A stretch of DNA of 7,455 nucleotides from Giesbergeria sp. (GTDB taxonomy: Bacteria; Pseudomonadota; Gammaproteobacteria; Burkholderiales; Burkholderiaceae_C): assembly GCA_017998735.1 (NCBI GenBank), contig JAGOCN010000076.1, positions 1-7,455 on the forward strand. Direction: 5' to 3'. Made by a program: the position numbers and the translations under genes. The notes under the pieces are model-generated. The model ran no database searches. It had not been told where the DNA came from and saw nothing but the letters and a program-made list of their open reading frames with translations. Below are positions 1-1,586 of this stretch, in pieces. The stretch's first letter is position 1; each line of letters starts with the position of its first letter.

Positions 1-1586
1 TGGTGGACACGGTCGATGTGCTGCGCGTGCATGGCCTGTCTGCCGCGTCCACCCTGGAAGACATGGCCGCCGTGCTGCAGCGCATGGCGGTGCTGCAGGC
101 GGTGCCGCAGGCCGGTCACCCTGCTGCTGATGCCAGCGACCCCGATGCCGCCGAACTGGCGCGCCTGGCCGCGCTGCTGCCTCCGGACGAGACGCAGCTG
201 CTCTACAGCATCTGCCTGCACGGGCGCGCTGAACTGGGCCTGGCGCCCGACGAATACGCCGCGCTGACGATGGTGCTGCTGCGCCTGCTGGCATTCAAGC
301 CGGGGGCTTTTGCGGGTACGGGTGCTGGCGCTGGCAGAACGGCAGAAAAAAAAACACTGAAACCGGCTGAAAACCCGGCTGCGCTGTCGCCAGGGTCCAG
401 CAGTACGGGAAGTATGGGAAGTACGGGAACTGCCGCCAGCGCGGGCGGAGCTGTACCTGCACCCGCAGCTGCGTCCGTGCCAGCGGCCCATGCACACCCC
501 AGTGCTGCCGGGGTGCCAGACCCATCTGCCTCCAGTGCGGTGCCCATGCCCTTGCCCACCGCCCGCCAGACGGCAGTGTCTGCGCCGCAGACCTTTCCTG
601 TGCAGCCAGCTGCGCCTGGGCTGCACGCTGCTCCTGCGGCCAGACCGGTGCCAGCATCAACACCTGTGAGCCGCTTTGCGCCTGAACCTGAAATGGTGGC
701 AGCCGGTGGTTTTTCGACTCCGCCGTGGGAAGACGAGGTTGCCCCCCAGGCCGGTTCACACCGCCCGGCCGTGCAAAACCCGGCAGCACTGGCGCCACAG
801 ACCGGGCACGCCAGAGAAACGCCAGAACGCACCCTGCAACCCGCAGGCCACGCCGGTGAAGGTGCCGCTGCCCCCAGGCGCGAAACCGGGTTTTCAGCTG
901 GTGCACAGCCTGTACAACCTGCGCAGCCACTGCAGGAAAAGCCCGCTGCCAGACCGCCTGCGCTGCACACCCCTATAGCCGCTGCCATAGAAGGGGAGGC
1001 AATGGCCCCAGCGGCTCCATCACCAGAGGTGCTGGCTGCTGCTGAAGACCCCCACGGCCTGGTTCTGGCACCTGCCGCAAATTCTGCTGTTGCTGCTGTA
1101 GCTGCCACCCCTGCACACGGCGGGCGTTTTGCAGAAGGGGTCGAAATCGGCCAGGCAAGTGCAGCGGATTCCGCAGGTGCAGCAAATGCAGCAGGTGCAG
1201 AAAATGCAGATGGCGATGTCTGGCATGCCGTGGTGCAGCAGCTGATTGCCGCCGAGGCCATCACTGCCCTGGTGCGCGAACTGGCACTGCAGTCGCAGCT
1301 GGTGGCGCGCGAGGGCGGCCACTGGCAGCTGCGCGTGGAACGTGCCTCCACCAACCAGCCCACCGCTCGCGAACGCCTGCGCGCTGCGCTGGAAGCCGCC
1401 GGCCATGCGGTGCAGGTCAGCGTCGATGTGGGTGCGGTCACCGACAGCCCGGCGCGGCGCAATGCACTGGCCGAGCAGGAGCGCCAGCGCATTGCACGCG
1501 ACATCGTGATGAACGACCCCTTTGTGCAGGCGCTGGTGCAAAACCATGGCGCGAAAATAGTGCCCGGCAGCATCCGGCCGCTGTGA
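1..1586 (+). CDS. dnaX: DNA polymerase III subunit tau (gamma/tau), 5'-truncated
   Basis: This is the C-terminal part of the clamp-loader subunit that loads the beta clamp and, as tau, links the loader to the polymerase alpha subunit and DnaB helicase. The frame is open at the left edge (first full codon at position 3), so the AAA+ ATPase domains I-II lie upstream. Of the 527 visible residues, about 1-101 match domain III, the collar (LEDMAAVLQRMAVLQAVPQ, then DETQLLYSICLHGR and LLRLLAFKP). Residues about 102-406 are a very long Ala/Pro/Gly-rich linker. Residues about 407-527 form the compact alpha-binding domain V, starting at WHAVVQQL and ending in GAKIVPGSIRPL, an ending I recognise from Burkholderiales. 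A 9-A run at 346-354, just after domain III, probably also yields a short gamma form. The linker holds two in-frame tandem repeats. The gene is followed by ybaB and recR, the usual bacterial order. Confidence 0.95.
   Translation, partial: VDTVDVLRVHGLSAASTLEDMAAVLQRMAVLQAVPQAGHPAADASDPDAAELARLAALLPPDETQLLYSICLHGRAELGLAPDEYAALTMVLLRLLAFKPGAFAGTGAGAGRTAEKKTLKPAENPAALSPGSSSTGSMGSTGTAASAGGAVPAPAAASVPAAHAHPSAAGVPDPSASSAVPMPLPTARQTAVSAPQTFPVQPAAPGLHAAPAARPVPASTPVSRFAPEPEMVAAGGFSTPPWEDEVAPQAGSHRPAVQNPAALAPQTGHARETPERTLQPAGHAGEGAAAPRRETGFSAGAQPVQPAQPLQEKPAARPPALHTPIAAAIEGEAMAPAAPSPEVLAAAEDPHGLVLAPAANSAVAAVAATPAHGGRFAEGVEIGQASAADSAGAANAAGAENADGDVWHAVVQQLIAAEAITALVRELALQSQLVAREGGHWQLRVERASTNQPTARERLRAALEAAGHAVQVSVDVGAVTDSPARRNALAEQERQRIARDIVMNDPFVQALVQNHGAKIVPGSIRPL
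346..370 (+). promoter_or_regulatory. Candidate dnaX slippage/frameshift site for a gamma-like product
   Basis: Nine consecutive A residues occupy 346-354. In frame, the codons are GAA AAA AAA ACA CTG. Adding one A, or a ribosomal -1 slip on the heptamer A AAA AAA at 347-353, gives AAC ACT GAA ACC GGC and then TGA at 368-370. Losing one A, or a +1 shift, gives CAC and then TGA at 358-360. Both alternative frames therefore close at once, just beyond domain III, giving a protein without the linker and domain V. Known parallels are E. coli dnaX (-1 ribosomal frameshift at A AAA AAG) and Thermus thermophilus dnaX (transcriptional slippage on nine A). I see no strong Shine-Dalgarno-like stimulator upstream. 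The nearest hairpin (374-379 with 389-395, one bulged A) starts about 20 nt downstream, farther than usual for a ribosomal signal, which favours transcriptional slippage. Its use here is inferred. Confidence 0.6.
402..428 (+). repeat. In-frame 9-bp tandem repeat in the dnaX linker (3 copies)
   Basis: Three adjacent 9-mers read AGTACGGGA, AGTATGGGA and AGTACGGGA, the middle one differing by one base. They are in frame and encode STG-SMG-STG within the disordered tau linker. Copy number could vary between strains without disturbing the frame. Confidence 0.8.
1173..1208 (+). repeat. In-frame 18-bp tandem duplication in the dnaX linker
   Basis: Two adjacent 18-bp units (1173-1190 and 1191-1208) differ by one base and encode AGAANA followed by AGAENA. 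The surrounding stretch uses more A-ending codons (GCA, GCA, AAT) than the GC-ending norm of the gene, consistent with recent local expansion in a low-constraint linker just before domain V. Confidence 0.75.

Follow-up and report, generated by a model that had tools for sequence, protein, structure and literature searches.

Does a run of nine adenines (A9) within the dnaX gene of a Giesbergeria genome cause this gene to yield a second, shorter product, and if so, is it RNA polymerase or the ribosome that slips on it? We have analyzed the 7,455-nucleotide stretch of DNA that raises this question (forward strand of contig JAGOCN010000076.1, hereafter the window) and compared it with dnaX loci from its genus, its GTDB family, its order (Burkholderiales) and the wider class. 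Thermus-type dnaX genes give two DnaX proteins in a ratio of about 1:1, and Caulobacter-type gamma is made by proteolysis of tau. Transcriptional slippage on an A9 has been described for dnaX of Thermus thermophilus (Larsen et al. 2000, as given in PMC1088944 and PMC5009743), and dnaX of E. coli uses -1 ribosomal frameshifting on A_AAA_AAG. On the comparisons presented here, we think it likely that the A9 in the window belongs to a conserved site where A residues are added or dropped by RNA polymerase, so that a gamma-like short subunit would be made beside tau.

Location of the A9 run in dnaX

The window begins inside dnaX, the 5' end of the gene lying beyond the contig start. The open reading frame at 3-1586 on the plus strand encodes the C-terminal part of DnaX, and its full-length reading gives tau. 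Matches to the NCBIfam models for the gamma and tau subunits of DNA polymerase III fall below the curated cut-offs, as is expected with a fragment. Two Pfam matches divide the frame: domain III, the last domain common to gamma and tau, is encoded at 27-293 as far as the match extends (PF12169, residues 9-97), and domain V, which Pfam annotates as interacting with the polymerase alpha subunit, at 1206-1571 (PF12170, residues 402-523). Between them lies an Ala/Pro-rich linker (294-1205), nearly all of which would be specific to tau. Downstream on the same strand are ybaB/ebfC (1803-2135; PF02575) and recR (2171-2767; PF13662, PF21176 and PF21175), and this gene order, dnaX-ybaB-recR, matches that of E. 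coli.

Several repetitive sequences were also noted in the window. Short in-frame tandem repeats are found within the dnaX linker at 402-429 and 1155-1209 (9 nt and 18 nt units), an almost pure T/C tract, striking for a GC-rich genome, lies just 5' of ybaB (1745-1779), and 3.8 tandem copies of TATGCAACGG are located 5' of the smc gene (4771-4808). The sequence ATAGCTGCTNGCGCAGGCT occurs twice in intergenic DNA (2833-2851 and 4667-4685; 0.01 expected), and its core was found once per locus in five fetched loci, the window's own stretch among them. It looks like a dispersed intergenic repeat.

The A9 run occupies 346-354 on the plus strand, between G345 and C355. It is read in the frame of the 3-1586 ORF as GAA AAA AAA ACA (residues 115-118), 18 residues past the domain III match. 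A TGA in the +1 frame follows at 358-360, +3 nt from the run, and a TGA in the -1 frame at 368-370, +13 nt from the run. A first-pass annotation, made from the letters of the window, had reported this run and both stops just past domain III and had likened the length of the run to that of the Thermus slippage site. On rereading the sequence, the span of 346-370 proved exact, as did the count of nine and the placement after domain III. No other run of A8 or longer is present on either strand of the window, for which shuffling gives a mean of 0.06 matches; in the genome's contigs there are seven A9 matches on both strands of 2.48 Mb (the assembly is about 65% complete).

The RNA-DNA hybrid of RNA polymerase is reported to be 8-9 nt long (PMC6260861). 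About nine A's would fill this hybrid, which would explain the near-constant length of nine described below, and the transcript could then realign to give messages with fewer or more A's. Messages with 9 or 12 A's would produce tau by ordinary translation; when translated by script they read through to the normal end of dnaX. Those with 8, 10 or 11 A's would encode domains I-III and a short tail. Messages with 8 or 11 A's are predicted to end at the TGA at 358-360, with the tails ...EKKH and ...EKKKH, respectively, and messages with 10 A's at 368-370, with the tail ...EKKNTETG; the script thus returned the two peptides, H and NTETG, that the first-pass annotation had predicted. Such a short product would be without most of the linker and without domain V, matching gamma in E. 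coli and Thermus. We infer from these sequences that the polymerase, and not the ribosome, would slip, that 8-, 10- and 11-A messages would arise, and that a stable gamma-like product would accumulate in some ratio to tau.

The layout of the site most resembles that of T. thermophilus dnaX. In both, tau is encoded in a single open frame (here with domain V downstream, the 5' part lying outside the window), an uninterrupted A9 on the sense strand follows the domains common to gamma and tau, each of the other two frames has a stop nearby, and the predicted short product is without the tau-specific C-terminus. Unlike Thermus, the lineage of the window is proteobacterial, and slippage here is a prediction from sequence. 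With E. coli dnaX the window shares the gene, the same kind of predicted short product and a near -1 stop, but its run reads A_AAA_AAA_A, so that the A_AAA_AAG heptamer is absent, and no SD-like element was found at -22 to -4 of the run. Two-ORF dnaX genes (Chlorobium, Chloroherpeton and others) likewise have poly(A) in dnaX, some of them 7-10 A's, and a transcriptional slippage site has been proposed for them (PMC3711429). There, however, tau needs the shift, whereas here tau is the unshifted product: no zero-frame stop is found right after the run, and the frame is open to 1586. In other proteobacterial genes, polymerase slippage has been described at 20-25% on an A11 poly(A) in Citrobacter rodentium tssM, and for tssM and Shigella type III genes as a source of two protein lengths with efficiencies of 15-55% (PMC4256274). 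These cases differ from the window in the genes concerned; the tssM run is also longer, and slippage in tssM1 restores the long form.

Conservation of the run and its off-frame stops

Within the window's GTDB family, dnaX was located in 160 genomes, from which 149 linkers (30 + 119) were obtained. Set aside were the 10 of 160 genomes that came without listed coordinates, four of which were later read in a purposive set, and locus L009, in which dnaX is on two contigs. Genome G003 was counted in the genus set only, G190 was kept among the 149 though it has N's at the site, and loci L069-L078, which stem from a survey for the pattern GAAAAAAAAANNNTGA, were left out of the examination. In that survey GAAAAAAAAANNNTGA was found in 154 of 399 family genomes (66 of 141 genera) and the reversed pattern in 7.

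Counting related sequences as independent, as all conservation statistics given here do, an A-run of at least 8 is present in 87 of the 149 linkers and in 75 of 124 genera, at most 140 nt from the end of the TIGR02397 match. Eighty-five of these runs are exactly A9, one is A8 and one is A10, and they have a single phase throughout. The run-bearing linkers have a GC content of 0.53-0.77, and no further runs of A8 or longer were found in 122 kb of family linker. Codon shuffles of the linkers with GC of at least 0.5 and a stop at or beyond codon 60 give an expectation of 0.2 linkers with A9 or longer; the observed number is 80 of the 142 linkers shuffled.

The stops are conserved jointly with the run, its phase and its place. 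Both off-frame stops lie within 22 nt at 77 of 87 run sites, compared with 2.2% of 17,016 positions elsewhere in these linkers taken as controls. Taken singly, the +1 stop is that near at 83 of 87 sites (13% of control positions) and the -1 stop at 81 of 87 (14%); the +1 stop is exactly at +3 in 72 of 87 sites, against 1.8% of control positions. In run-less linkers, the 2,440 positions after domain III have a +1 stop in 9%, a -1 stop in 6% and both in 0.9% of cases. The +1 stop is mostly formed by CTG|A, and at some sites a TAG or TAA stands instead, so that a stop is still kept. GCT or CCT supplies the T of the -1 stop in 50 of 81 cases, and elsewhere in the linkers these are minority codons (GCT, 372 of 3,224 Ala; CCT, 348 of 2,099 Pro). 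One or both near stops are missing at 10 of the 87 family sites. Whether run and stops are kept in relatives was the check proposed with the first-pass annotation, and at 87 of 149 linkers with the run and 77 of these with both stops the result speaks strongly for the proposed site.

If the run were maintained because the protein requires Glu-Lys-Lys, or were present by chance, no short product would need to be made. Many family linkers are entirely without the run, and Lys-Lys is also encoded by the ribosomal-type sites described below, as such an explanation would allow. The choice of codons speaks against it. Glu-Lys-Lys written with AAG at the site was not seen in the draw, AAG being used at 0 of 85 A9 sites, while elsewhere in these linkers AAG accounts for 228 of 450 lysine codons. 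The 87 AAA AAA pairs all coincide with run sites; other Lys-Lys pairs in the vicinity are few and belong to other motifs or to ribosomal-type sites. In the draw, no A9 site decayed to AAG was found, the three ribosomal-type genomes and the genome with N's being set aside. Glu can be replaced by Gln, CAA standing in place of GAA at 1 of 87 sites and at a few further loci, with the A9 unchanged. What is conserved at the site is the nucleotides rather than the residues, and protein constraint cannot explain the conservation of both off-frame stops. We therefore rejected protein-level constraint, given the avoidance of AAG, the tolerated change of Glu to Gln and the kept stops, and likewise a chance origin of the A9, given the observed and expected frequencies of the two stops (77 of 87 against 2.2%), of the run in shuffled linkers (80 of 142 against 0.2) and of matches in the window (0.06 expected). 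Together, these two explanations are extremely improbable.

Homopolymers can vary in length, and the run could in principle be a phase-variable DNA locus that changes by replication slippage. One locus might be read in this way: L338 (genome G323, genus g141), from a single-contig genome, has an A8 with an in-frame stop directly after it. Against phase variation, 85 of the 87 runs in the family draw have a length of exactly nine, and the frame is open past the run in 87 of 87. A sequencing error in the homopolymer could account for the A8 of G323, and loss of tau would probably be lethal, judging from E. coli. Either L338 contains such an error, or it has a reversed arrangement in which tau would need the slip. 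As an account of the family's runs, phase variation is scarcely credible.

In the window's genus, 20 dnaX loci extend into domain III, and at 18 of them the run is exactly A9. The -1 stop is within 22 nt at all 18 of these loci, and both stops are at 14. At one locus of the genus, L029, the contig stops short of the site. Another, L028 (genome G005), has a linker without an A-run and without matching off-frame stops after domain III, so that this close relative seems to have lost the site. Across the family the run is absent from 62 of 149 members (one unreadable and three with a ribosomal-type heptamer). Because L028 and these 62 members are without the run, gamma made by slippage would not be required everywhere. 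Among titled records, a set that may be biased as one of its six search words spans the site, A9 was found in 31 of 31 loci and both stops in 29 of 31; these A9 loci come from Giesbergeria, Curvibacter, Hydrogenophaga, Simplicispira, Comamonas granuli, Limnohabitans, Rhodoferax and others, and it is from the titles of these records that the names Comamonadaceae and Burkholderiales are taken. A further 30 genomes for follow-up in the family were chosen by hand and not randomly drawn. The 22 readable family linkers that they gave comprise 8 with A_AAA_AAG, 7 with A9, 1 with A8 and a closed frame, and 6 with neither.

Slippage by polymerase or by the ribosome

Transcriptional slippage is favoured because nine A's are kept where the ribosomal heptamer needs seven, and because AAG is avoided at the site. 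The polymerase is also favoured because stops are conserved in the two other frames, as they are in Thermus, and because SD-like 4-mers upstream of the runs show no excess over control windows (12 of 87 sites against 17% of 1,664 windows). A near +1 stop is kept in the window's family, while E. coli dnaX has its next +1 stop at a distance of 34 nt. As reported in PMC6260861, the Thermus dnaX run shifts in both directions when placed in E. coli, and enterobacterial RNA polymerase slips on runs of at least nine in varied directions. The same source describes little slippage by E. coli RNA polymerase on the poly(A) reporters tested, which counts against our reading, as does the inclusion of A_AAA_AAA, a possible -1 ribosomal site, within the run.

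Programmed -1 frameshifting on this A_AAA_AAA would give the short product much as in E. coli, minus the AAG codon. The heptamer is in the right phase, the near -1 stop is there in 81 of 87 sites, and a mild downstream excess of RNA structure is consistent with a stimulator. On this account, though, neither the conservation of nine A's nor the +1 stops are explained, and the lack of any excess of SD-like 4-mers weighs against it as well. A_AAA_AAG is described as the better ribosomal shift site in E. coli (PMC5009743), and it is this heptamer, with SD-like sequence, that is carried by 11 genomes of the same family in three genera. We consider frameshifting of this kind at the A9 sites unlikely. 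Alternatively, the message might be an accurate copy, with ribosomes sliding along its poly(A) and resuming in either frame. Sliding on iterated AAA has been described to end at out-of-frame stops (PMC4363877), and sliding ribosomes could make use of both stops. In the in vitro results of the same source, however, A11 gave robust truncation and A9 or A10 little, and runs in this family hardly ever depart from nine A's, which include two complete in-frame AAA codons. Sliding is very unlikely to account for these sites.

The first-pass annotation had argued for the polymerase from a missing SD-like stimulator and a distant hairpin. The former holds in the window; the latter is weaker than supposed, since downstream folding at A-run sites has a mean z of -0.75, compared with -0.08 and -0.11 in control windows of the same linkers. 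In the window itself, z is -1.2 for 355-415. Folding is slightly stronger than in shuffles on both sides of the run. Because downstream folding slightly exceeds that of the control windows, a weak RNA stimulator may be present at the A-run sites. A comparison of hairpins gave a mean z of -0.57 for A-run sites and -1.12 for ribosomal-type sites (p = 0.10), and E. coli scores only -2.0 (40 nt), so that folding does not tell the two kinds of site apart.

Ribosomal-type sites within the same family

In 11 genomes of the family, A_AAA_AAG is present in phase and without A9: five of genus g46 (loci L084, L080 and L330-L332), five of g116 (L175, L337, L341, L344 and L347) and one of g100 (L354). Three of these genomes belong to the family draw, the other 8 having been sought out deliberately, and the set covers all five g46 and all five g116 genomes listed in the GAAAAAAAAANNNTGA survey. 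The heptamer lies 50-98 nt past the TIGR02397 end. About 15 nt upstream of it is a GGGAG-, GGAGG- or GGGGG-like motif, and the -1 stop follows at +2 or +8 nt. This is the layout of E. coli dnaX, although the motif of that gene ends 10 nt before the heptamer.

The two kinds of site differ in their stops and in SD-like sequence as the distinction between polymerase and ribosome predicts. All 11 ribosomal-type sites have the -1 stop, whereas a near +1 stop is found at 4 of 11, against 83 of 87 A-run sites (Fisher p = 7e-6, relatives counted as independent). SD-like 4-mers at -21 to -10 are present in 11 of 11 ribosomal-type sites and in 8 of 87 A-run sites. The central claim of the first-pass annotation, a gamma slippage site acting through RNA polymerase, draws support both from the conservation of the A-run sites and from this contrast.

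Two trees, one built with FastTree and a smaller one with a mixture model, were made from 20 residues of the domain III end together with domain V. In the FastTree tree, 110 of 113 rows labelled A9 (one A8 and one A10 row included) fall in one clade with support 87, which was chosen afterwards as the best-scoring clade. This clade also holds 5 run-less rows, three of them ribosomal-type. The three A9 rows outside it belong to genera g81, g130 and g143, and in the smaller tree they stand among run-less lineages; that tree places the ribosomal-type genera without resolution.

Sites in other families of the order and in the wider class

Beyond the window's family, 95 linkers were read from 49 families of the order; 12 have a run of A9 or longer, and one of these runs lies in a gene that is very AT-rich. 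Among other-family linkers with GC of at least 0.5, 8 of 75 have such a run, against 0.19 expected from codon shuffles. In family f50 the A9 is present in 7 of 7 readable linkers (L360-L366), with a -1 stop 1 nt past the run and a near +1 stop in 5. Family f37 has A9 in another phase, 5' of a conserved FDG.W motif, in 3 of 3 readable linkers (L388, L231 and L239), and family f48 in 2 of 2 (L240 and L389), with the +1 stop at 15 nt and the -1 stop at 28. An A9 in the third phase was found in f43, in 4 of 4 linkers of one AT-rich genus (L238, L390, L391 and L393) and in 0 of 14 from other genera. Family f13 has A10 in 5 of 7 readable linkers (L380 and L382-L385), the remaining two being cut by contig ends. 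These A9 and A10 runs mostly have near off-frame stops. An A10 is also present in all five genomes of genus g112 with a match in the GAAAAAAAAANNNTGA survey. The A10 of both f13 and g112 contains an in-phase A_AAA_AAG, and the mechanism at these sites may be ribosomal.

In the wider class, the best-scoring 30 of 89 dnaX loci were read. Three of these 30 have A9, one of them with both stops within 22 nt, and two have an in-phase AAAAAAG; in another of the 30, L436 (genome G590), the frame closes just after an A11, as in two-ORF dnaX. The suggestion of the first-pass annotation that slippage would be unusual for a proteobacterium is therefore doubtful, in view of the A9 and A10 runs in other families of the order and the A9 in 3 of the best-scoring 30 of 89 class loci. 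From the spread of A9, A10, A11 and AAAAAAG across families and class, recoding-like sites in dnaX seem to be frequent and mobile in position.

Discussion

The mechanism of transcriptional slippage is already known, and the window's family would be a further, widely conserved case of it. In the open-access literature, the scope of a search that most subscription papers lie outside, we found no report of dnaX slippage in Comamonadaceae or Burkholderiales, nor any account of this family's site and how it is conserved, of the sites across the order or of the coexisting ribosomal-type sites. Slippage sites that give a shorter protein are described as hard to find by genome comparison (PMC1088944), and screens for disrupted ORFs are described as missing such sites (PMC4066793). 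Scoring the conservation of off-frame stops against positions in the same linkers finds shorter-product slippage sites from sequence alone.

The A9 and A10 sites of Burkholderiales lie at different positions, in all three phases and in six GTDB families. The short subunit may have come repeatedly under polymerase slippage in these six families, with turnover between polymerase and ribosome in the window's family, perhaps following the presence of a separate tRNA for AAG, a lysine codon; we regard this as an evenly balanced proposal. The number of lysine tRNAs has been suggested as a reason for the Thermus mechanism (PMC5009743). Where both kinds of site coexist in one family, the choice of a lineage between polymerase and ribosome becomes directly testable. 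The sites described here suggest that, in a large proteobacterial group, a core subunit of the replication machinery would be set by the infidelity of RNA polymerase.
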